A stretch of DNA of 42,641 bases, from contig NZ_JARHTQ010000050.1 in the NCBI RefSeq assembly GCF_029223525.1, positions 1 to 42,641 of the forward strand, written 5' to 3'. Below, piece by piece: positions 29,113-38,465 of the stretch. The notes under the pieces are model-generated. The model saw only the letters and a program-made list of their open reading frames with translations, was not told the DNA's origin and did not search any database. Source of the stretch: Streptantibioticus ferralitis. Its GTDB lineage: Bacteria; Actinomycetota; Actinomycetes; Streptomycetales; Streptomycetaceae. A program made the position numbers and the translations under genes. Within the stretch, counting starts at the first letter, position 1, and each line of letters starts with the position of its first letter.

Positions 29113-29338
29113 CCGCTCACACCCAACCCGCTGTCCTGCCCGGCCCGTTGACCGTACCGCCGAGGCCTTCCGTGTCGCAGGACGCACGGCGGATACGGCG
29201 AGCTCTACCCATCCTGTCGTGGGCACCACACAAGATCAGTGGAACAGGCCCTAATGTGGGACGGATGACCGCCCTAGGGTTTAGGTGACCGACCCGGGGT
29301 CCGGAAGATGACCACCGAGCGGAAATCGGGAGGTGCGC

Positions 29339-31810
29339 GTGGCGGGCGGTGTCGAAGCGACAAGCGCGGGCTCGGGCCCGCGTACCCTCGCGGAGGATTT
29401 GCGCGCGCGTGGCGACGACGCCGTCGCGGCGCTGCTGCTTGCGCGCCCCGACCTGGTCAACCCGGTGCCGGGCGATCTCACCCAGCTCGCCACCCGGGCC
29501 GGTACCCGGGCCTCGGTGGTGCGCGCCCTGGAACACCTCGACCGGTTCACGCTGCAGACCGCCGAGGCGCTGGCGATCGCCCCCGACCCCTGCCCGTACG
29601 AGACCCTGCGCGCCCTGATGACCGGCGACGAGGGATCGGCGGAGATCGTGGCGGCACTGCCCAAGACGCTGGCCGCGCTGCGGACCAACGCGCTGGTGTG
29701 GGGTGGCGACGACCGGCTGCGGCTGGTGCGCACCGCCCGCGATCTGCTCGCGCCCTCACCCATCGCGCCCTCACCGACCGGTCTGGGGCCGACGGTCGCG
29801 GAGGCCGCCGCGGGCATGTCGCCCGGCCGCCTGCAGCAGATCGTGGCCGACGCCGGGCTGCCCGCGACCCACGACCCGGTGAGCGCGGTCGCCGCGCTCA
29901 CGGCGCTGTTCTCCGACCGGGTCCGGCTGGAAGCACTGCTCGCCGAGGCACCGGAGGGCACGCAAGCGGTGCTGGAGAGGCTGAAGTGGGGCCCGCCGTA
30001 CGGAGATGTGGCGCAGGCCGCCGATCCGGTACGGGCGCGCACCGCCGACACTCCCGTGCAGTGGCTGCTGGCCCGCGGCCTGCTGCTGCCCGCCGGGCAC
30101 CACACCGTCGTGCTGCCGCGCGAGACGGCGCTGCGGCTGCGCGGCGGACGCGCGCACCAGGCGCCGGAGCCGCTGCCGCCCGAGGTGGCCCCGGCCGCGC
30201 GGTACGACGCTCAGGTGGTGGACGGAACCGGCGCCGGGCAGGCGTTCACGGCGGTGCGGACCGTGGAGGAACTGGTCAAGGGATGGGACGCGGGCGGTCC
30301 GCTGGTGCTGCGGGCGGGTGGAATGAGCGTCCGGGACCTCAAGCGCACCGCGGCCGTGCTGGACACCACCGAGGAACTGGCCGCGTTCTGGCTGGAGACC
30401 GCGTACGCCGCCGGACTCGTGGCCTCCGACGGCGAGGTGGACGAGGCGTACGCGCCGACGCCCGGGTTCGACGAGTGGCTGCGGCTGCCCACCGAGGACC
30501 GCTGGGCACGGCTGGCCTCCGCATGGCTGGCGGCCACCCGCACGCCGGGCCTGGTCGGCGGCCGGGACGCCAAGGGCCGCACGCTTTCCGCGCTCGGCCC
30601 TGACCTGGACCGCTCACTGGCGCCGGGAGTGCGGCGCCGGGTGCTGGAACTGCTCGCCGCGCTACCGGACGGCGCGTCCGCTCGGCCCGAGGAACTACTG
30701 CCCCGGCTGCGCTGGGAGCGGCCACTGCGCGGCGGCGCGAGTCTGGACGAGTTGCGGGCGCGGATCGTCCAATGGACCGTCCAGGAAGCCGAGTTGCTGG
30801 GTGTCACCGGCCGCGGCGCGCTGTCCGCCCACGGCCGTACGCTGCTGGCCGAGGCGCCGGGAACGGCGCTGGAGGCGGCGGCCGACCGGCTGCGCCCGCT
30901 GCTGCCCGAGCCGCTGGACCATGTGCTGCTGCAGGCCGATCTGACCGCGGTCGCCCCCGGCCCGCTGCGCACCGTGCTCGCCGAGACGCTCGGTGTGCTC
31001 GCCGACATCGAGTCCAAGGGCGGGGCGACCGTCTACCGGTTCACCCCGGAGTCGGTGCGGCGGGCGCTCGACGCCGGGCGCACCGCGGACGATCTGCACA
31101 CCTTCCTCGCCACGCACTCGCGCACTCCCGTCCCGCAGCCGCTGACCTACCTCATCGACGATGTGGCCCGCCGGCACGGACGGCTGCGGGTGGGCGCCGC
31201 CTCGGCCTACGTCCGCTGCGACGACGACGCGCTGCTCGCCGAGATCCTGGCCGACCGCAGGGCCGCGGGGCTCGGCCTGCGCCGGCTGGCGGCGACCGTG
31301 CTGGCCGCCCAGTCCGAGCCGGTGACCTTGCTGGAACGGTTGCGCACCATGGGCTTCGCGCCCGCCGCCGAGTCCGCCGAGGGCGATGTGCTGATCACCC
31401 GCGCCGACGCCCGCCGCACCCCGCCGCGCGCCGCGCCCGTTCCGGTACCGGACGGGCCACCACGACCGGACCAGACGCTGCTGTCGGCGGCGGTCAAGGC
31501 GATCCGCGCGGGCGACCGGGCGGCCACCGCGGCCCGTAAACCGGCGCCGGAACCCGCGGCCCGCGGCGCCCGGCTGCCCCGCACCACCTCGGCCGAGACG
31601 CTGGCCACCATGCAGGCCGCCGTGCTCACCGGCGAGGCGCTGTGGATCGGCTACGTCAACGCGGACGGCGCCGCCAGCCAGCGGGTCATCGAGCCGGTAC
31701 GGGTCGAGGGCGGCTTCGTCACCGCGTACGACCACACCGCCGACGAGGTGCGCACCTACCCGCTGCACCGCATCACCGGCGTCGCCGAACTCGCCGAGGA
31801 CGCGGGGTAG
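29339..31810 (+). CDS. Helicase-C-3 and WYL-like domain protein, partner of XPB helicase
   Basis: 823 residues. The N-terminal winged-helix-like part (LTQLATRAGTRASVVRALEHLDRF) is followed by the conserved helicase-associated domain (VLLQADLTAVAPGPL...LADIESKGGATVYRFTPESVRRALDAG) near 510-570. A WYL-like domain closes the protein (GEALWIGYVNADGAASQRVIEPVRVEGGFVTAYDH...YPLHRITGVAEL). No Walker A is present, so it is not itself a helicase motor. GTG 29339 was chosen over GTG 29333 because GGGAGG ends 5 nt before it. In actinobacteria it normally adjoins the XPB gene; here a 4.9-kb insertion separates them. Likely DNA repair. Confidence 0.85.
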   Translation: MAGGVEATSAGSGPRTLAEDLRARGDDAVAALLLARPDLVNPVPGDLTQLATRAGTRASVVRALEHLDRFTLQTAEALAIAPDPCPYETLRALMTGDEGSAEIVAALPKTLAALRTNALVWGGDDRLRLVRTARDLLAPSPIAPSPTGLGPTVAEAAAGMSPGRLQQIVADAGLPATHDPVSAVAALTALFSDRVRLEALLAEAPEGTQAVLERLKWGPPYGDVAQAADPVRARTADTPVQWLLARGLLLPAGHHTVVLPRETALRLRGGRAHQAPEPLPPEVAPAARYDAQVVDGTGAGQAFTAVRTVEELVKGWDAGGPLVLRAGGMSVRDLKRTAAVLDTTEELAAFWLETAYAAGLVASDGEVDEAYAPTPGFDEWLRLPTEDRWARLASAWLAATRTPGLVGGRDAKGRTLSALGPDLDRSLAPGVRRRVLELLAALPDGASARPEELLPRLRWERPLRGGASLDELRARIVQWTVQEAELLGVTGRGALSAHGRTLLAEAPGTALEAAADRLRPLLPEPLDHVLLQADLTAVAPGPLRTVLAETLGVLADIESKGGATVYRFTPESVRRALDAGRTADDLHTFLATHSRTPVPQPLTYLIDDVARRHGRLRVGAASAYVRCDDDALLAEILADRRAAGLGLRRLAATVLAAQSEPVTLLERLRTMGFAPAAESAEGDVLITRADARRTPPRAAPVPVPDGPPRPDQTLLSAAVKAIRAGDRAATAARKPAPEPAARGARLPRTTSAETLATMQAAVLTGEALWIGYVNADGAASQRVIEPVRVEGGFVTAYDHTADEVRTYPLHRITGVAELAEDAG

Positions 31811-31902
31811 CGCCCGGCCATCCATCGCGGACGACCACTCTGTTTCGGCGCGCGATGCGCGACACTGGAAGCTTGTCCCGGTAGAACGAGCGAAGGGCCA
31901 GG

Positions 31903-31928
31903 GCGTGAACGGACCTCTCATCGTCCAG
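31903..31928 (+). repeat. attL: 26-bp direct repeat, left copy
   Basis: Identical to 36814-36839. Begins gcgtgaacggacctctcatc. Contains the GTG and first eight codons of XPB. Similarity to the right junction continues upstream in blocks: acactgga at 31862 and gaaggg at 31892. Confidence 0.88.
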
Positions 31929-31964
31929 GCGATCAGGTCCGGTGCGCGTACTAAGCCGTCGTGA
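31905..31964 (+). pseudogene. Severed XPB 5' stub (19 codons)
   Basis: The frame reads VNGPLIVQ, identical to the real XPB start, then runs into element DNA (AIRSGARTKPS) and stops. It is the original or displaced head of the helicase gene, left behind by integration. It still has GAAGG at ribosome-site distance. Confidence 0.8.
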
Positions 31965-32012
31965 GCCGCCTGCCTACCATTTCCGCAGCCCAGAGCATAA
32001 GGAGCCCCGCTC

Positions 32013-32135
32013 ATGCACCACGGGGGGGGCAGCGCACGAACGGAGCCGACTGGGGGCGCCCTGAGTGATCAGGTGCCGAGGCGGTTCGAGGGCTTATCGA
32101 GCCACGCGAACTGTTCCTCGCTGGTGACGGTGTAG
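32013..32135 (+). CDS. Short ORF with a strong ribosome site, perhaps a gene remnant
   Basis: AAGGAG lies 8 nt before ATG 32013, one of the best ribosome sites in the element. The frame (MHHGGGSARTEPTGGALSDQV...) lasts 40 residues and runs antisense into the end of the methyltransferase gene. The start may belong to a gene whose body was replaced. No family recognised. Confidence 0.25.
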   Translation: MHHGGGSARTEPTGGALSDQVPRRFEGLSSHANCSSLVTV

Positions 32136-33246
32136 CCGAACCGAGCCACCTCGGGCCGGTCGTTTTCCTTCCACCACTGGTGGGCTGACTCGACCTCATC
32201 CCAGAGCTTCCGTGCCCCGTACTGCCAGACCGTGAAGCGATCTTCGTGCTTGCCGTCGTAGTCGACGGCTGCCCACGAACTGCCGTCCGTGGTCGCTAGC
32301 CACAGCCTCTTCTCGACCCCGTCCACGTCGGGGTTGTCGTGCCAGGTGCGCCACACGTCGTGGAGTCGCAGGCCGATGGCGAACTGAAGGTCCCAGTCGT
32401 CACCTGTGACTGTCCATGGGGACAGGCGGGTACTCGATTCCGCCGGTTGGTGGTCGTCTTTGACGACATCGCGGAAGATCCGCAGGCTGGTCCGCTGGCC
32501 GCGCATGAGCATGAAGGCCGAGTGAGGTGAGAAGCGTCCTCTCGCGCTGGCGTCGGCGTCCACCTCCAGCCGCAACAGCCCGTAGCACAGCCATGGGCTC
32601 TCCCACGGGGTCAGGATGACGCCGCCCGGCTCGATCTGCGGCACCCACATCTGCGGCACGTGGTTGACCGAGCATGTTGCCATGAGGCGGTCGTACGGAG
32701 CCCTGGGCAACCAGCCTTCCGCCCCGTCGGCACAGATCACGCGGGGGCAGTACCCGGCGCTGCCGATCCGCGTTCGTGCCCGTGCTGCGAGGCTCGCGTC
32801 CACTTCGACCGTGGTCACACGGTGGTCTCCGAGACGGTGGCTGAGTAGCGCGGCGTTCCAGCCGGTTCCGGTGCCGATCTCCAGCACGGTCTGGCCAAGT
32901 TGCACGTCGAGTTCCCGCAGCATCCGAAAGACGATGCTCGGGGCGGACGCAGAGGACGAGGGCCATACGTCGCCGTCCGTGGGTTCCGCACCATCACAGA
33001 CCTGCGTGATCACGGGATCATCGGCGTAGGCGGCACGAAGCCACGCGTCCGGTTCCTCCTGACATTGCACGGGCGCAGATCGCCGCTGTCGTCGTAGATC
33101 CAAGCCGTCTCGGGCAGGAACTTGTGCCGGAGCGCACCTCGCGCGGCCATCGCCCACAGCTCGTCAAGGTCGCGTCCCAGGTCATCGGATACGGACAGTA
33201 GGAGGCCGCGCAGGGCGGCCTCCACCTGCTCTTGCTTGAACTCCAC
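32069..33246 (-). pseudogene. PCMT-like SAM-dependent methyltransferase split by a frameshift
   Basis: Reading from GTG 33246, frame 1 gives VEFKQEQVEAALRGLLLSVS...ALRHKFLPETAWIYDDSGDLRPCNV. Near 33060-33066 homology passes to the -1 frame: QEEPDAWLRAAYADDPVITQV, then VLEIGTGTGWNAALLSHRLG (SAM site), VEVDASLAARAR and the C-terminal domain. The whole resembles protein-L-isoaspartate methyltransferase relatives used in peptide-modification clusters. A one-base deletion explains the break; no slippery heptamer is visible. If frame 2 initiates internally (GTG near 33073), two polypeptides could form. Active state uncertain. Confidence 0.65.
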
Positions 33247-33380
33247 TGCCAGCCCTTCTTGTGCTTGGGCTCCGGCTGCGGCTTCGAGCCGTCCGGGCTC
33301 GGCTTCGCGGTGCCCGGGTCCTTGCCTCCGGCGTGCTTACCGTCGCCGCCGCTGCCGCCCTTACCTGTGCCCCATCCCAT
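33018..33380 (-). CDS. Gly/Lys/Pro-rich small ORF before the methyltransferase
   Basis: ATG 33380 has AAGGAG 6 nt upstream, an excellent start. The first ~45 residues (MGWGTGKGGSGGDGKHAGGK, then PGTAKPSPDGSKPQPEPKHKKGW) are hydrophilic. The rest of the 120-codon frame overlaps the methyltransferase in another frame and looks like a shadow. Either a short peptide whose true end was lost, or the original N terminus of the methyltransferase, cut off by a frameshift near 33246. Confidence 0.35.
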   Translation of the reverse strand: MGWGTGKGGSGGDGKHAGGKDPGTAKPSPDGSKPQPEPKHKKGWQWSSSKSRWRPPCAASYCPYPMTWDATLTSCGRWPREVRSGTSSCPRRLGSTTTAAICARAMSGGTGRVASCRLRR

Positions 33381-33430
33381 GGGTGTCTCCTTCAACGCTG
33401 TGACGTGTGTTGGATTTCGGATGACTTTGC

Positions 33431-33508
33431 TTAGCTCGGCTTCGGGGGCCGGGCCGGTGTCCGGGTTGGCATGTCGTCCGGCTGTTTCGGCCCCTTGGGA
33501 TCGGCCAT
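33431..33508 (-). CDS. Possible 25-residue peptide MADPKGPKQPDDMPTRTPAR...
   Basis: ATG to TAA, Pro/Lys/Asp-rich, lying 50 bp before the Gly/Lys-rich ORF on the same strand. AAGGG stands about 12 nt upstream. It follows a terminator hairpin, so it could be the first gene of the methyltransferase unit. No family recognised. Confidence 0.3.
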   Translation of the reverse strand: MADPKGPKQPDDMPTRTPARPPKPS

Positions 33509-33535
33509 GATGGAACCGCCCTTCATCTGATGGGC

Positions 33536-33575
33536 GGCGCCGGAGGTCTGCGCTGGTTACGTCGCCTCCGGCGCC
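33536..33575. terminator. Hairpin separating two element transcription units
   Basis: ggcgccggagg (33536-33546) and cctccggcgcc (33565-33575) are perfect 11-bp arms with an 18-nt loop. It lies just past the stop of the 76-residue ORF (33593), in position to end the ATPase-TM-ORF unit. Confidence 0.6.
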
Positions 33576-33592
33576 TTCTTCCTCGTTCCTGT

Positions 33593-33823
33593 TCAAAAGG
33601 GACGAGGTCCCTGCTGGTGATCTGTTGAACCCACCTCCGCCAGTCCCTTCGTGTGGTCCGGGGGAAACCCTTTGGATGACACGGCGGAGGTGGGCTTCCC
33701 CTCCCGCGCCGTCACGGCTGTCCGCTCACGTGACGGGGCGGGAAGCTTGGCGAGTCGTTCCCGACTCTCGTTTGAACCCTGGTACCCGACGAACGCGAGA
33801 AGATCCGGGCGCAAGTTCGTCAT
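33593..33823 (-). CDS. Hypothetical 76-residue protein, coupled to upstream gene
   Basis: ATG 33823 begins one base after the TGA of the preceding gene (TGAGATG), implying translational coupling. Sequence MTNLRPDLLAFVGYQGSNES then a polar Lys/Arg/Ser/Pro-rich tail. No family recognised. Its coding DNA contains two large inverted repeats (33630-33694 and 33703-33742), unusual for a gene, so a structured non-coding reading is also possible. Confidence 0.4.
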   Translation of the reverse strand: MTNLRPDLLAFVGYQGSNESRERLAKLPAPSRERTAVTAREGKPTSAVSSKGFPPDHTKGLAEVGSTDHQQGPRPF

Positions 33824-33824
33824 C

Positions 33825-34007
33825 TCAGGCCGTCCAATCCGACTGAGCGTCCGGCGCGGAGGCGGAGTTGGGTGGTGTCGGCTCCTGTAACTCCTGCTGC
33901 ACAACGGAGCCGAGACAGAACAGCGCGATGACGTGGGCGATGGCCCATGCGACGGTGAATGTCTTCTCGCCTGCGCTCGCGTCGTCGAAAGCATGCTCCC
34001 CCGGCAT
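33825..34007 (-). CDS. Hypothetical 60-residue single-pass membrane protein
   Basis: The ATG overlaps the stop of the RsbW-like gene by one base (TGATG), a typical coupled arrangement. MPGEHAFDDASAGEKTF, then a hydrophobic helix (TVAWAIAHVIALFCLGSVV, ~18-36), then a polar tail. It may be a membrane partner of the ATPase. No family recognised. Confidence 0.6.
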   Translation of the reverse strand: MPGEHAFDDASAGEKTFTVAWAIAHVIALFCLGSVVQQELQEPTPPNSASAPDAQSDWTA

Positions 34008-34495
34008 CAGGCCACCGCCGCCGCGAAGCGAGCGATGCCCAGACCCGTCCTCGACTCAAGCCGCGGTAAGGGGCGGCGGTTCGATGTGCCGCTGTCGTCG
34101 GACGAGGCTAGGACCTGCATTTCCGCCCAGACCTTTTTGCCACGGACGGTCGGCTCCCATCCGCAGTTCACGGTCAGGGCGTTGATCAATGACAGTCCGC
34201 GACCGTTCTCATCGTCGTCCGTGACTGGCCGCCTCTTCGGGGGCTCGGGGTCGCCGTCGAAGACCTCAAGCAAGATGCGGTCCGTGTCCTGATACAGCCC
34301 GACCATCAGCGGCCCGGTGCTGTGTTTGACGGCGTTGGTCAGCAACTCGGAGGCGACCAACTCAATGGCTTGCGCGCTCTCTTCGCTGAGCGAGCCGGAC
34401 CAGCACCTGGCAGCCGCAACAATGCGGTGGCGAGCCGGGCCGACGAAGCGAGGTGTGCCCGGGATGACGAAGCGCATGGTGCCCGCAGAGATCAT
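34007..34495 (-). CDS. RsbW/SpoIIAB-like ATP-binding regulator
   Basis: 162 residues with a GHKL HATPase_c_2 domain: N-box ELVASELLTNAVKHS (45-59), G1 LEVFDGDPEPP (76-85), G2 GRGLSLI (98-104). These single-domain ATPases act as anti-sigma or regulatory kinases and are very numerous in Streptomyces, including on mobile elements. ATG 34495 has GGAG 8 nt upstream. Start of a unit with two tightly coupled small genes. Partner unknown. Confidence 0.85.
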   Translation of the reverse strand: MISAGTMRFVIPGTPRFVGPARHRIVAAARCWSGSLSEESAQAIELVASELLTNAVKHSTGPLMVGLYQDTDRILLEVFDGDPEPPKRRPVTDDDENGRGLSLINALTVNCGWEPTVRGKKVWAEMQVLASSDDSGTSNRRPLPRLESRTGLGIARFAAAVA

Positions 34496-34584
34496 GACGG
34501 TTGCTCCTGGCGATGGCCTGTGGCGTTGCGTCGAGTGGGTGGGCCGACCTCGCGGGTTGACGACGGGGCGACAACAACTGATTG

Positions 34585-34604
34585 GCCAACTAGGCTCAGT
34601 TGGC
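34585..34604. promoter_or_regulatory. Inverted repeat GCCAACT-n6-AGTTGGC between divergent units
   Basis: Two perfect 7-bp arms spaced by aggctc. It lies in the only divergent spacer of the element, 90 bp from the ATPase start and 125 bp from the plus-strand unit. A likely operator for one or both. Confidence 0.5.
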
Positions 34605-34728
34605 GCTCGCCGTCACCCTCTGAGGTGGTCCGACTGCTCACCGGCATGAACGTACGGGTGGCGAGCGTGGCGTAGGACTCACTACGGGTACGGGTTAGCA
34701 CCAGAGGGTCGACTCCTCGGGGAGCACG

Positions 34729-35139
34729 ATGAGTACGCAGCCAAAAGCGAGGCGCCGTTCCAGCACAGGAGCCACGAGCAATGCCAGTGGCACGCTGCTG
34801 CGCCGCCAAGCGCTGTATCTCGCCAGCTATGACAGGCGTCAAGACGCACCCCGGTGGACGGCTGAGACGCTGCATCGCCGCCGTGGCCTGCTATCTGTCC
34901 GGGGTTGGTCTGTCCACTGGGTGGAGACGCGAAGCATCGCTGCGGCCTTGGCGAGGCAGGGCGATCCTCAACCGTTACGAGACTTCATCGAGAGGTCGCT
35001 GGCGGACGACGACGAGGCAGCCGTAGCGGGAGTTCTGGGGGATCAAACCACGTACGCTCTGGATGCTCTGGACTTATCATCGCGGTCCCGCCGTGAACTC
35101 GGCGTTGTATGCCAGCTCCTACGCGCACATCAGACCTGA
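34729..35139 (+). CDS. Hypothetical 136-residue basic/helical protein
   Basis: ATG 34729 has GGGGAG 5 nt upstream. Ser/Arg-rich start (MSTQPKARRRSSTGATSNAS), then LYLASYDRRQDAPRWTAETLHRRRGLL and IAAALARQGDPQPLRDFIERSLADDDEAAVAGVLG. It looks alpha-helical and soluble. No family recognised. The HD nucleotidase gene follows after 17 bp, so the two are probably one operon. Confidence 0.65.
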   Translation: MSTQPKARRRSSTGATSNASGTLLRRQALYLASYDRRQDAPRWTAETLHRRRGLLSVRGWSVHWVETRSIAAALARQGDPQPLRDFIERSLADDDEAAVAGVLGDQTTYALDALDLSSRSRRELGVVCQLLRAHQT

Positions 35140-35156
35140 TCGACCGGAGGACAGCC

Positions 35157-35732
35157 ATGGAGGAGAAGACCATCGCAGCGGGCACAGCGGGGTTCCTGAT
35201 GGAAATGGGCATGCTCAAGCGGGCCAAGCGGTCGGGATGGTGGATTGCTGGAGTCAAGGACCCAGAAACGATCGCTGAACACTCCTTCCGAACAGCCGTC
35301 GTTGGGTCCGTACTTGCGCTGATGGAGGGGGCAGACCCGGCGAAGGTCGCACTGCTCTGCGTCTTCCATGACACCCAGGAGACCCGCATCGGCGACATCC
35401 CGCACATCGGTCGGCGATACCTGAGTGCGGCGTCCAACGAGAAGGTGACCGCTGACCAGGTCTCGGCAGCGCACCCGGCCGTCGCCTCCGGCATTCAGCG
35501 CGTCGTGGATGAGTACGAGAACGGCGACAGCCTGGAAGTGATCGTCGCGCATGACGCCGACAAGTTGGAGTGTCTGATCCAGGCTGTTGAGTACCGTGAG
35601 CAAGGGCATTCGAACGTCCAGAACTGGATTGACACAAGCCTTGCGAGCCTGAAGACGGCTTCCGCGCAAGAGCTTGCCGAAGCGGCGCTGAACATGTCCT
35701 CGGTGGAGTGGCAGCAGACGTACCTGCGCTAG
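35157..35732 (+). CDS. HD-domain nucleotidase (YfbR-like)
   Basis: 191 residues. HD-domain metal ligands are His42 (EHSFRTAVVG), His71-Asp72 (FHDTQETRIGD) and Asp133/Asp135 (AHDADKLECLIQA), as in YfbR-type 5'-deoxynucleotidases that dephosphorylate dNMPs. GGAGG lies 6 nt before ATG 35157. As element cargo it may alter nucleotide pools. The deoxynucleotide substrate is inferred from the family. Confidence 0.88.
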   Translation: MEEKTIAAGTAGFLMEMGMLKRAKRSGWWIAGVKDPETIAEHSFRTAVVGSVLALMEGADPAKVALLCVFHDTQETRIGDIPHIGRRYLSAASNEKVTADQVSAAHPAVASGIQRVVDEYENGDSLEVIVAHDADKLECLIQAVEYREQGHSNVQNWIDTSLASLKTASAQELAEAALNMSSVEWQQTYLR

Positions 35733-35998
35733 GAGCCACCCCTATAGAGCGACGCCCGGGGGCACAACCTTCGTAGGGCTTCGCCACGATCTGCGCACAG
35801 CGATGGCGCCCGTAATCCCGGGACCGTCGAGTACGACGCTCGCGGGCCGCCGACGACGAACCGCGGTACGTGGCAGGCGAGTTCGCCCTCAACGGCCGCC
35901 CGCCGCCCTCCGTCCACGGCCCCGTATCGTGGGCGTTCGCGCGCAATGGGCGGGACGGTGCTGCTGCCTAAGCGCAGTGCCACAACGGGGATGGACAC

Positions 35999-36538
35999 AT
36001 GCAGAGCACGAATGGCTGGGCCTCCCTCGTCATGGCCGTGGTGGTCGTCGGTCTGGTGGTACGGCAGCAGCTGCGCACCCGTCGGGTGCGGCGCCATGGC
36101 TCGTTGATCATCCCGGCCGTCCTCGGCATCCTGGGCGCCTTGGGGATCGCCTTCGGCATCGCCTCGGTCGTCAAGTACCACCCGCTGACCACGTTGCCCG
36201 TCGTCCTCCTGGTGGCGAGCCTGGCTGTCGCGGCGGGCTTCGGCATGGCCAGGGCACGGACCGTACGGGTATGGCAAGGCCCCCAGGGCGAGGTGCTGCG
36301 CAAGGGAACGGCGGCCACCACCGGGCTCTGGCTGGCCTCAATAGGTGCGCACATCGGGCTGAGCCTGTGGATCGACCACACAGCCGGGGCCGGGGTGGGT
36401 ACCGCGTCGCTGTACGCGTACCTGGCGATCGGCCTGGGGCCGCAGAACCTCCTGGTGCGCGGGCGGGCCGGCGCGCTGCGACCCCAGCCTGACGCGGCAA
36501 ATCAGCCCAACCCCGGCTCGTACATCCGACAGCGGTAG
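35999..36538 (+). CDS. Multi-pass membrane protein
   Basis: 179 residues with about four hydrophobic segments: ~8-22, ~36-60, ~66-85 and ~105-145. Segment order and the RQQLRTRRVRRHG cytoplasmic stretch recall CcdC/DUF1453-type proteins, but I cannot assign it firmly. GGGGATGGA stands just before the ATG. A 266-bp spacer separates it from the HD gene, with no other gene seen there. May be element cargo or captured chromosomal DNA. Confidence 0.7.
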   Translation: MQSTNGWASLVMAVVVVGLVVRQQLRTRRVRRHGSLIIPAVLGILGALGIAFGIASVVKYHPLTTLPVVLLVASLAVAAGFGMARARTVRVWQGPQGEVLRKGTAATTGLWLASIGAHIGLSLWIDHTAGAGVGTASLYAYLAIGLGPQNLLVRGRAGALRPQPDAANQPNPGSYIRQR

Positions 36539-36541
36539 GCC

Positions 36542-36694
36542 TCACCCGAGTACCGCAAGCGGTTCTCGAACATCGACGTCTTCCTCGACCACGACCACGT
36601 TCCACCCGCGTGCCTCGCACAGCGACTCGCACGCCGCCCGCTGCCGCTTCGGAGCAGTGCTTTCCTCGGTCTCACGCGATAGGCGAACATGGAC
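36542..36694 (-). pseudogene. Serine recombinase N-terminal fragment (former integrase)
   Basis: The frame reads VHVRLSRETEESTAPKRQRA, then ACESLCEARGWNVVVVEEDVDV before breaking into unrelated residues and a stop. Ser in RLSR is the recombinase nucleophile region, and the Arg-Gln-rich helix plus ARGW-VV are typical of large serine integrases. About 450 or more residues are missing. Its place next to attR is where an integrase gene is expected. Confidence 0.65.
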
Positions 36695-36813
36695 GGCTGC
36701 GCGCGTCCCCGGCGCGCTGGCCGGGACGCTCTCGCGGCGCCCGGGCCGGGGCTCGTCCCCTTTCGCCGTGATGCGGCACACTGGAGGTTTGGCGGTTACG
36801 GGAAGGGCGGAAC

Positions 36814-36839
36814 GCGTGAACGGACCTCTCATCGTCCAG
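36814..36839 (+). repeat. attR: 26-bp direct repeat, right copy
   Basis: Exact match of 31903-31928. It contains the functional XPB GTG (36816). Blocks upstream (tttcgccg 36761, gatgcg 36770, acactgga 36778, gaaggg 36802) resemble the left junction in the same order. Confidence 0.88.
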
Positions 36840-38465
36840 AGCGACAAGACGCTGCTGCTGGAGGTGGATCACCCGAGCGCGGACGAGTGCCGTCGCGCCA
36901 TCGCGCCGTTCGCCGAGTTGGAGCGGGCGCCGGAGCACATCCACACCTATCGCGTCACGCCGCTCGGCCTGTGGAACGCGCGCGCCGCCGGGCACGACGC
37001 CGAGCAGGTCGTCGACGCGCTCGTGCAGTACTCCCGCTACCCCGTTCCGCACGCCCTGCTCATCGACGTCGCCGAGACCATGGCACGCTACGGGCGGCTG
37101 CGGCTGCTCAAGCACCCCACCCACGGGCTGGTGCTGGAGACCACCGACCGGCCGGTACTGCACGAGGTGCTGCGGTCGAAGAAGATCCATCCGCTGGTCG
37201 GCGCCCGTATCGACGAGGACACGGTCATCGTGCATCCGTCGGAGCGCGGGCAGATCAAGCAGGTGCTGCTGAAGCTCGGCTGGCCCGCCGAGGACCTCGC
37301 CGGATACGTGGACGGCGAGGCGCACCCCATCGAACTGCGCGAGGACGGCTGGGCGCTGCGCCCCTACCAGCAGCAGGCCGTACAGGGCTTCTGGCACGGC
37401 GGCTCGGGCGTGGTCGTGCTGCCGTGCGGCGCGGGCAAGACGCTGGTCGGCGCGGGCGCCATGGCACAGGCCAAGGCCACCACCTTGATCCTGGTGACCA
37501 ACACGGTCTCCGCGCGCCAGTGGAAGCACGAGCTGGTGCGCCGCACCTCGCTGACCGAGGACGAGATCGGCGAGTACAGCGGAACGCGCAAGCAGATCCG
37601 CCCGGTCACCATCGCCACCTACCAGGTGCTGACGACCAAGCGGAAGGGCATCTATTCGCACCTTGAGCTGTTCGACTCGCGCGACTGGGGCCTGATCGTC
37701 TACGACGAGGTGCATCTGCTGCCCGCGCCGGTCTTCAAGTTCACCGCCGACCTGCAGGCGCGCCGCCGTCTGGGGCTGACCGCGACGCTGGTACGGGAGG
37801 ACGGCCGCGAGTCGGACGTGTTCTCGCTGATCGGCCCGAAGCGGTTCGACGCGCCGTGGAAGGAGATCGAGGCGCAGGGCTACATCGCGCCCGCCGACTG
37901 CGTCGAGGTCCGGGTGAACCTGACGGACTCCGAGCGACTGGCGTACGCCACGGCGGAGGCCGACGAGAAGTACCGGTACTGCGCGACCACCGCGACCAAG
38001 CGGCATGTGATCGAGGCACTGGTGGCCAAGCACAAGGGCCAGCAGACGCTGGTCATCGGACAGTACATCGACCAGCTCGACGAGTTGGGCGAGCACCTGG
38101 ACGCTCCGGTGATCAAGGGCGAGACGACCAACGCGCAGCGCGAGAAGCTCTTCGACGCGTTCCGGGCAGGCGAGATCAACGTGCTGGTGGTCTCGAAGGT
38201 GGCGAACTTCTCGATCGACCTGCCGGAGGCGACGGTCGCCATCCAGGTGTCCGGCACCTTCGGCTCGCGGCAGGAGGAGGCACAGCGCCTCGGCCGGGTG
38301 CTGCGGCCCAAGGCCGACGGCCACAAGGCGCACTTCTACTCGGTGGTCGCCCGCGACACCATCGACCAGGACTTCGCGGCGCACCGCCAGCGCTTTCTGG
38401 CCGAGCAGGGCTACGCGTACCGGATCGCGGACGCCGACGACATCCTGGCCGGCGACGAGGTCTAG
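36816..38465 (+). CDS. XPB-like DNA repair helicase
   Basis: 549 residues, superfamily 2. The N-terminal DUF/damage-recognition-like region (~1-170) leads to the motor: Walker A LPCGAGKTLVG with Lys208, DEVH box 297-300, LGLTATLVRED, and the second RecA lobe with QVSGTFGSRQEEAQRLGRVLRPK. It matches bacterial XPB, a 3'-to-5' DNA unwinding enzyme. GTG 36816 is supported by GAAGG about 9 nt upstream and by the VNGPLIVQ start repeated in the left stub. It stays intact after element insertion. Convergent with the GT87 gene; the stops share CTAG. Confidence 0.94.
   Translation: MNGPLIVQSDKTLLLEVDHPSADECRRAIAPFAELERAPEHIHTYRVTPLGLWNARAAGHDAEQVVDALVQYSRYPVPHALLIDVAETMARYGRLRLLKHPTHGLVLETTDRPVLHEVLRSKKIHPLVGARIDEDTVIVHPSERGQIKQVLLKLGWPAEDLAGYVDGEAHPIELREDGWALRPYQQQAVQGFWHGGSGVVVLPCGAGKTLVGAGAMAQAKATTLILVTNTVSARQWKHELVRRTSLTEDEIGEYSGTRKQIRPVTIATYQVLTTKRKGIYSHLELFDSRDWGLIVYDEVHLLPAPVFKFTADLQARRRLGLTATLVREDGRESDVFSLIGPKRFDAPWKEIEAQGYIAPADCVEVRVNLTDSERLAYATAEADEKYRYCATTATKRHVIEALVAKHKGQQTLVIGQYIDQLDELGEHLDAPVIKGETTNAQREKLFDAFRAGEINVLVVSKVANFSIDLPEATVAIQVSGTFGSRQEEAQRLGRVLRPKADGHKAHFYSVVARDTIDQDFAAHRQRFLAEQGYAYRIADADDILAGDEV

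Follow-up and report, generated by a model that had tools for sequence, protein, structure and literature searches.

How can a mobile element insert at the very start of a protein gene and leave a complete gene behind? Elements that spare their targets are best known for restoring the 3' ends of tRNA or protein genes. The window, a stretch of 42,641 nucleotides from Streptantibioticus ferralitis (contig NZ_JARHTQ010000050.1), raises the question for the 5' end of an XPB-type DNA repair helicase gene; the host genus lies outside the Streptomyces group of the taxonomy used. As an initial annotation had noted, an exact 26-bp direct repeat (31903-31928 and 36814-36839, spacing 4911) flanks 4.9 kb, with its left copy heading a 19-codon stub (31905-31964) and its right copy the full helicase (36816-38465). 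By an arithmetic estimate, about 1e-7 chance exact 26-bp repeats are expected per 8 kb of such DNA, and a chance repeat is thus ruled out.

A decayed element between two XPB starts

Between the two starts lies the 4.9-kb relict of an integrative element that has decayed (G+C 66.3% versus 71.8%). The locus is laid out as follows:

29333-31810, + strand: gene for a Helicase_C_3 + WYL protein (Pfam), left of XPB in relatives too
31811-31904, + strand: XPB upstream region of own-genus type, the left half of the former attB (local alignment)
31903-31928, + strand: attL with the left repeat copy (26 bp), where the native start of XPB meets the element (sequence comparison)
31905-31964, + strand: 19-codon stub ORF plus stop, left at the native XPB start (read from the sequence)
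31928-31955, + strand: element arm P' adjoining the crossover; by eye it resembles the P' arm of G001 and mirrors the P arm
32069-33157, - strand: cargo, methyltransferase of the ATP-grasp peptide (graspetide) type, N-terminus perhaps broken (TIGR04188)
34007-34495, - strand: cargo, protein with a histidine-kinase-like ATPase domain (PF13581)
34729-35139, + strand: cargo ORF without a family match (ORF list, profile searches)
35142-35732, + strand: cargo, HD-domain (YfbR-like) hydrolase (PF13023)
35999-36538, + strand: ORF without a family match above cut-off (ORF list, profile searches)
36566-36736, - strand: N-terminal fragment of the XPB-site serine integrase (protein comparison)
36752-36815, + strand: XPB upstream region that is foreign and Streptomyces-like, standing where the P arm normally lies; left border approximate (local alignment)
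36814-36839, + strand: right repeat copy (26 bp), marking the beginning of the complete XPB gene (repeat search)
36816-38465, + strand: XPB-type DNA repair helicase, complete ORF with an own-genus body (PF16203, PF13625; tree placement)

The left end of the relict matches elements that carry a full serine integrase at the same XPB site, and the integrase fragment is 81% identical to the integrase of one such element (genome G001, same genus) and 68% identical to that of another (G015). The proposal that a serine-integrase element had inserted at the start of XPB is supported; the window itself retains of the integrase an N-terminal fragment that lacks the domain set of large serine integrases. 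The methyltransferase scores 301 bits with TIGR04188, below the 380-bit cut-off, and aligns to a G001 protein from residue 57 only. The replication, transfer and helix-turn-helix (HTH) proteins of G001 have no match anywhere in the window, and the set that marks an actinomycete integrative and conjugative element (AICE), namely an integrase, a replication initiator and an FtsK/TraB-like transfer protein, is not present in the window element, which can therefore be no more than a relict or a relative unable to conjugate. With its integrase mostly lost and no recognisable replication or transfer gene, the element is very probably immobile.

Intact relatives at the same site

The initial annotation had suggested looking for an empty site and for full serine integrases at the same target, and both were found. 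In G002, a genome of the same genus, the helicase-C/WYL gene is followed after 80–90 bp by XPB with a single copy of the repeat; this gene also lies immediately 5' of XPB in some other relatives. Full-integrase elements with left ends of the window kind measure 13.2 kb in the same-genus genome G001 and 4.4 kb in G015. An integrase or a piece of one at 70% identity or more occurs in 15 of 394 family genomes, directly 5' of XPB in all 15; nine of these integrases are full length without stops and six are broken or partial. Six further genomes carry relatives of 33–35% identity, none of them at XPB within 1.5-kb flanks. In a species collection, 33 of 34 integrase loci lie directly 5' of XPB (two in Saccharopolyspora), including L114, whose best segment is just 39% identical and which is yet at XPB. 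The two counts overlap in their loci (e.g., L082 and G015) and are therefore not independent. The initial annotation had also held that a repeat present twice in most relatives would speak against insertion; this is not what was seen, as two core-pattern matches (at most 2 mismatches) occur in 5 of the 394 genomes, i.e., the window's own, G288, and G107, G239 and G371, where the second match lies away from XPB.

In the G001 integrase, a single protein carries the Resolvase, Recombinase and zinc-ribbon domains (PF00239, PF07508 and PF13408, all above cut-off). The G001 element contains the complete AICE set, i.e., integrase, RepSA-like initiator and FtsK/SpoIIIE-domain protein; the FtsK_SpoIIIE model PF01580 gave 29.4 bits (cut-off 24), the RepSA model 577 bits, below its cut-off of 700, and the TraB model scored far below cut-off. 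Near-full-length relatives of the G001 initiator and FtsK-domain proteins lie beside the integrase at L098 and L101. Among 1418 phage and 2576 plasmid matching records, all below 60% identity, no known phage or plasmid with an XPB-site integrase was found (top-ranked matches 36% and 32%, respectively). IMG/VR holds one predicted provirus contig with a 73% integrase relative at the extreme contig end; a scan of 7 of the 12 available ORFs of 180 aa or longer gave no clear sign for or against a phage.

Taken together, these comparisons suggest that the window in all likelihood contains an immobile relict from a family of elements with a large serine integrase specific for the 5' end of XPB.

A putative translation start in the attP arm

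In all 11 elements for which both ends were available, the identical core spans 8–11 bp, which rules out the 26 bp as the integrase core, as the initial annotation had taken them to be. The recombination core, ATCGTSCA, corresponds in relatives to XPB codons 6–8 (sequence comparison). The arms of attP are mirror images of each other (16–21 of 28 positions) in 8 of the 11 elements, the mirror arm lacking GGAGG; the other three (L097, L104 and L114) have no recognisable mirror P' arm. attL was located for 10 of the 33 species-collection loci, these three among them, within the stretch available per locus.

The P arm of the element carries GGAGG, five bases and then a GTG in the XPB frame. All 49 right ends compared share this arm with its in-frame GTG and XPB codons; among 39 distinct right ends, GGAGGTA and GTGTCCTG are invariant, and the variable bases between GTG and core, read by eye, are synonymous in the XPB frame. 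The initial annotation had envisaged an attP that brings its own version of the helicase promoter and start. Indeed, the arm replaces the XPB start, but the usual attP leader, GGAGGTATGYGTGTCCTGC, is unlike the native helicase promoter and start rather than a copy of them, and inspection of the P arm by eye revealed no clear XPB promoter.

Comparison of relatives thus shows what integration does. The stub at the left end keeps the native promoter and start codon together with the initial codons, and at the right end the P arm provides a Shine-Dalgarno sequence, an in-frame GTG and new first codons for XPB. Such a replacement leader would keep XPB translated, which may be why insertion is tolerated. 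Once the element has decayed and can no longer excise, the element-derived leader would become the permanent XPB start.

The right end of the window

The right end of the window departs from this pattern: among the 20 genomes in which an integrase match lies at XPB, the window alone has a native-type right end. Since it bears a native-type XPB start, the 26-bp "core" is mostly common gene sequence. The stretches preceding the two GTGs are similar to each other, as had been noticed initially (local alignment score 27 versus a maximum of 23 in 200 shuffles). In local alignments to 53 loci, the last 70 bases of the left stretch score 91 with G002 and 89 with G001, the next best being 50; for the right stretch, a Streptomyces is nearest (60) and own-genus scores are poor (30 and 27). 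The right end of the window is thus of foreign origin.

The XPB body itself clusters with the same-genus G002 and G001 on the XPB tree, on an end branch of 0.053 versus 0.017 and 0.020 for the congeners. Its bases 90–270 are 84–90% identical to congeners, versus 93–96% between congeners, with a single 90-base bin reaching 97% identity to a Streptomyces; foreign alleles in the body were not significant (Fisher p = 0.078). From these comparisons, the foreign upstream region most likely stems from later recombination with a Streptomyces-like donor, which would also have made the 26-bp repeat; alternatively, it may have arrived with the element.

One form of such an arrival, a mechanistic version of the initial idea, is a tentative possibility to which we give appreciable but clearly minor weight. 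The arriving circle would already have lost most of its integrase and would have carried an earlier host's XPB promoter, start and P' arm, i.e., a captured attL; one crossover in the common start sequence would then have joined the own promoter to core and P' at the left end, and the foreign promoter to core and XPB at the right end. That a single crossover accounts for the own promoter with P' at one end and the foreign promoter with an own-genus XPB body at the other is its attraction, and G107, where another promoter-core-P'-like segment occurs at a place other than XPB, suggests that such segments can travel. However, it requires an aberrant circle plus recombination of an attL-like site, which serine integrases normally do not recombine, and there is one clear case only.

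Element-type XPB starts across Streptomycetaceae

The element arm alters the beginning of XPB to MSCLIVQ instead of MNGPLIVQ. An MSCLIVQ start was found in 60 of the 394 family genomes (30 with loci, 16 more fetched, one of them a duplicate, and the rest known from other comparisons here), 38 of which have no detectable integrase trace beside XPB. GGAGG lies within 16 bases before the start in 58 of 60 MSCLIVQ loci versus 0 of 50 native-type loci; the latter come from 49 genomes and remain from a set of 57, 30 of them chosen for likeness to the window's right arm, after 7 had been left out (attL copies, matches outside XPB and one variant). The XPB tree requires at least 24 switches between start types, a minimum on that tree, with gain and loss not distinguished; the tree comprises 122 rows of loci in hand, not a random sample, and was built by a quick search.

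Based on these results, we favour, with some reservation, the interpretation that attP of this integrase family carries a ready-made translation start, and that repeated invasion and decay fixed this start in about one seventh of the sampled Streptomycetaceae genomes, much of one genus included. As part of the same reading, start-codon capture by a mobile element would probably act as a ratchet, irreversible by excision once the integrase is gone. Some soil bacteria thus seem to retain an element-derived XPB start where the element is no longer recognisable.

The genus in question, g7 (35 of the 394 genomes), also suggests the reverse, namely that attP copied the XPB 5' end of a g7-type host, in the way that elements inserting into tRNA genes bring along a tRNA 3' end, and that sporadic MSCLIVQ/GGAGG starts arose by mutation or gene exchange. 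Twenty-five g7 genomes have the MSCLIVQ start; 24 of these fall into one clade of the XPB tree (support 86), and 24 show no integrase homology in the stretch searched. We nevertheless consider this direction rather unlikely. All 11 outgroup loci, from other families of the class, read GPLIVQS and are thus of native type (13 of 19 class genomes matched at E <= 1e-60, minus the own genome and G011), and many sporadic MSCLIVQ cases retain integrase pieces or, by eye, P-arm flanks. In addition, five bases separate GGAGG from GTG in all 19 integrase cases, as well as in 13 of 15 others with GGAGG, versus 4–8 in g7, as expected if the g7 start is an old scar. A mixed history of the MSCLIVQ start is possible.

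A purely local event, in which the XPB 5' end was duplicated around ordinary genes and no mobile element took part, would fit the exact 26-bp repeat by itself, but is ruled out for practical purposes by the integrase fragment, the conserved P' arm, the empty site in G002, the full elements at the same site and the unlike promoters.

Relation to known systems

If the favoured interpretation is correct, an entire family of integrases rewrites the beginning of a DNA-repair gene, giving it a conserved substitute for its ribosome-binding site and start codon, and the resulting scar seems to persist after the element itself has gone. XPB starts would then be a record of past invasions, odd XPB N-termini would be explained, and a new integrase/attB pair at a conserved Streptomyces site would be at hand. 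The question is also raised whether insertion alters XPB expression and DNA repair. Among the open-licence PMC matches listed, considered by titles and the beginnings of abstracts, no paper on integration at XPB or on a start-codon-supplying attP was found, which is not proof of absence.

A close parallel concerns the SpyCI chromosomal islands of Streptococcus pyogenes, which in the available part of the report insert at the 5' end of mutL and sever this gene from its transcription; mutL of strain Manfredo is served by a promoter located in the region of the SpyCI integrase pseudogene (PMC3430984). Both systems insert site-specifically where a DNA-repair gene begins. Unlike this promoter rescue in one strain (PMC3430984), the XPB family provides, in every one of the 49 right ends compared, a ribosome-binding site together with a start codon and first codons, and its element-type start is also seen in genomes in which no element is detectable.

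A published AICE survey lists, in the part available, 19 of 144 AICEs with serine recombinases, some of them in protein genes. The G001 element resembles these in its serine integrase, RepSA-like initiator and FtsK/SpoIIIE-domain protein, and differs in its XPB site and putative gene-start rescue, neither of which is described in that part of the survey. Decayed AICEs with cargo and a truncated integrase between direct repeats have been reported in a glycosyltransferase gene (PMC9513070). The window represents the same type of remnant, with repeats in a protein gene, but at another target, and gene-start replacement is not described in the available sections of that report.

Phage SV1 integrates in SCO4383 and, according to the available text, encodes no SCO4383 homologue or fragment that would compensate for the truncation (PMC4068962). 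Like SV1-type Streptomyces phage integrases, for which different inverted repeats in attB and attP are described (PMC4068962), the XPB-site system has a serine integrase, a short identical core and, in 8 of 11 elements, inverted-repeat attP arms; unlike SV1, the XPB element has an arm that continues the target gene in frame.

XPB as a recurrent integration site

The exact 26-bp direct repeat reported in the initial annotation, with one copy on a 19-codon stub and the other on XPB, the gene of a DNA-repair helicase, was recovered together with its neighbors:

29333–31810, Helicase_C_3/WYL protein gene (WYL gene; Pfam), left of the repeat
31903–31928, left repeat copy, heading the 19-codon stub
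36566–36736, serine integrase, N-terminal part only; 81% identity to the integrase of G001 (a congener), 68% to that of G015 (Kitasatospora)
36814–36839, right repeat copy, heading the XPB ORF
36816–38465, XPB ORF (Pfam PF16203, PF13625)

Relatives presented this site both empty and filled. As predicted for an empty site, the WYL gene directly precedes XPB in a second congener, G002, with 80–90 bp between them and a single copy of the core. In G001, the WYL side is followed by the core and by an element whose opening bases are similar to those of the window element, with XPB 13.2 kb onward, and in G015, from another genus, a 4.4-kb element occupies the same XPB site. In both genomes a serine integrase (domains PF00239, PF07508 and PF13408 in G001) adjoins XPB and is transcribed away from it.

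With the G015 integrase as a query (E ≤ 1e-60), 21 of 394 family genomes matched, 15 at ≥70% identity and six at 33–35%. The integrase lies directly 5' of XPB in all 15 genomes of the former group; nine of these bear out the expected insertions with a full serine integrase (full length, without stops), and six are broken or partial. XPB was found in the 1.5-kb flanks of none of the six more distant relatives. In a collection of named species, the integrase locus was 5' of XPB in 33 of 34 cases, several loci being partial, and the sole exception was a 31% relative from a Frankia MAG. Two of the XPB-site loci (L105, L112), with the same integrase and arm, belong to Saccharopolyspora, a distant actinobacterial genus of a different order. 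A 73% relative of the integrase is located at the end of a 47.9-kb predicted provirus contig (IMGVR_UViG_2866826726_000001; L237/L238); a phage may therefore integrate at the XPB site as well, or else this predicted provirus may be an ICE.

For 11 elements both ends were available. Their left and right ends share a block of just 8–11 bp around ATCGTSCA, and the 26-bp repeat is thus not the integrase core that it had been taken for; the central CA of the shorter core is the probable crossover dinucleotide. The attP arms mirror each other at 16–21 of 28 positions in eight of the 11 elements, while those of L097, L104 and L114 are not mirror images (6–10 of 28 positions). Genome G107 has a second XPB promoter-like segment, complete with core and P'-like arm, at a distance from XPB and near a contig end (L055, contig C61, around position 2723 of the reversed locus); the WYL-XPB site of the same genome is empty on another contig.

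A replacement start supplied by the element

It had been proposed that attP carries its own version of the helicase promoter and start. Instead, all 49 right ends compared (39 distinct) have in common a P arm, the attP arm reaching XPB, that confers a different start, MSCLIVQ. GGAGGTA and GTGTCCTG are invariant across the 39 distinct right ends, and bases further up are mostly variable. In the arm, GGAGG is followed after 5 bases by a GTG in the XPB frame, for a predicted N-terminus of M-S-C-L-I-V-Q-S-D-K as compared to the native M-N-G-P-L-I-V-Q-S-D-K. Variable bases between this GTG and the core end are synonymous in the XPB frame, and in L091 an out-of-frame ATG just ahead of the GTG is gone while the GTG is kept. 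As GGAGG is absent from P', the mirror arm at the left end, the Shine-Dalgarno sequence is not merely part of a symmetric integrase site. These sequence comparisons suggest that the Shine-Dalgarno sequence and GTG of the P arm maintain XPB translation.

Judging by the available parts of the respective papers, the closest published case that we found is SpyCI at mutL of Streptococcus pyogenes (PMC3430984), and serine-recombinase AICEs, a class of actinomycete integrative elements, in protein genes as well as decayed AICEs with truncated integrases are on record (PMC3218068, PMC9513070). By title and start of abstract, none of the matches listed deals with XPB targeting or with the supply of a start codon by attP.

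Distribution of the element-type start

The window's N-terminal integrase fragment, used as a query, found matches in 30 of the 394 genomes; in 20 of them, including the window, the match lies at XPB. Apart from the window, all 19 keep the element-type start, the motif being exact in 18 and carrying a single change in G238. In G387, ~0.85 kb separates the WYL gene from XPB, and nothing of the element can be recognised there beyond a 54-residue integrase piece. Altogether, 60 of 394 genomes bear the element-type start, namely these 19, 25 of a single genus (g7) and 16 others. Among the g7 genomes and the 16 others, three (G140, G270, G023) have weak integrase pieces, and tblastn detected no integrase traces in the remaining 38 within the stretches searched; despite the lack of a tblastn match, the flanks of G383, G333 and G393 resemble the P arm by eye.

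GGAGG is found ≤16 bases ahead of the element-type start in 58 of 60 genomes (19/19, 24/25 of g7 and 15/16 others) and ahead of the native-type start (MNGPLIVQ) in 0 of 50 loci. The element-type start is derived, given that GPLIVQS is read in all 11 outgroup loci, which belong to other families within the class. At least 24 switches between the types are needed on an XPB tree from a quick search, built with 63 native-type and 59 element-type rows (122 in all); it unites 24 of the 25 g7 rows in a single clade (support 86), leaving out L182. Several genomes without a detectable integrase, such as G146, combine a native-looking promoter with the element-type start, which fits the pattern that a deletion would leave.

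The exceptional right end of the window element

The window stands apart from the 19 other genomes where an integrase match lies at XPB: its right end alone bears a native-type start. Over the 70 bases preceding the left repeat copy, alignment scores were 91 and 89 against the two congeners; the corresponding stretch before the right copy reached 30 and 27 against them, but up to 60 against Streptomyces-group loci. Among 392 Streptomyces-group genomes, the best match to the right end showed 93% identity over 86 of 121 bases, about half of them gene start. The XPB body clusters with congeners in the tree; its bases 90–270 look less native, and a foreign-allele test on the body was not significant (p = 0.078). 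Taken together, the upstream scores, the best Streptomyces-group match and the congener-like XPB body show that an XPB upstream region of foreign origin separates the integrase fragment from the gene. The original notion of an attP bringing in a helicase promoter and start does not hold for the usual right ends, which carry the other arm. For the window's foreign promoter and native-type start there are two fitting routes. The somewhat likelier one, since it calls for nothing out of the ordinary from the integrase, is that donor DNA later replaced the P arm. In the other, which corresponds to the original notion, the incoming element would have brought with it the attL of a former host (native XPB start joined to P').

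Element class and cargo

The G001 element encodes a protein similar to RepSA (577 bits against a cut-off of 700) and an FtsK/SpoIIIE-domain protein (29.4 bits, over a cut-off of 24), and by these sequence matches it, at least, has the hallmarks of an AICE. It also encodes an ATP-grasp maturase (TIGR04187; 417 bits, over 350) and a methyltransferase (TIGR04188; 476 bits, over 380), a pair (L052, 13422–15532) that makes up a peptide cluster of the graspetide type, carried as cargo by an ICE. The window methyltransferase is TIGR04188-type (301 bits, cut-off 380) and its match to the G001 methyltransferase begins at residue 57; the replication, transfer and HTH proteins of G001 had no matches in the window. 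Other window cargo comprises an ATPase-domain protein, an HD hydrolase and ORFs without a known family. Two bits of element DNA (32795–32934 and 33439–33573) have 69–85% relatives elsewhere in the window's own genome (contigs C110, C17 and C64). The Kitasatospora element has a second, small resolvase-type recombinase in addition to its integrase (L053, 3567–4139), with a 64% relative in locus L086.
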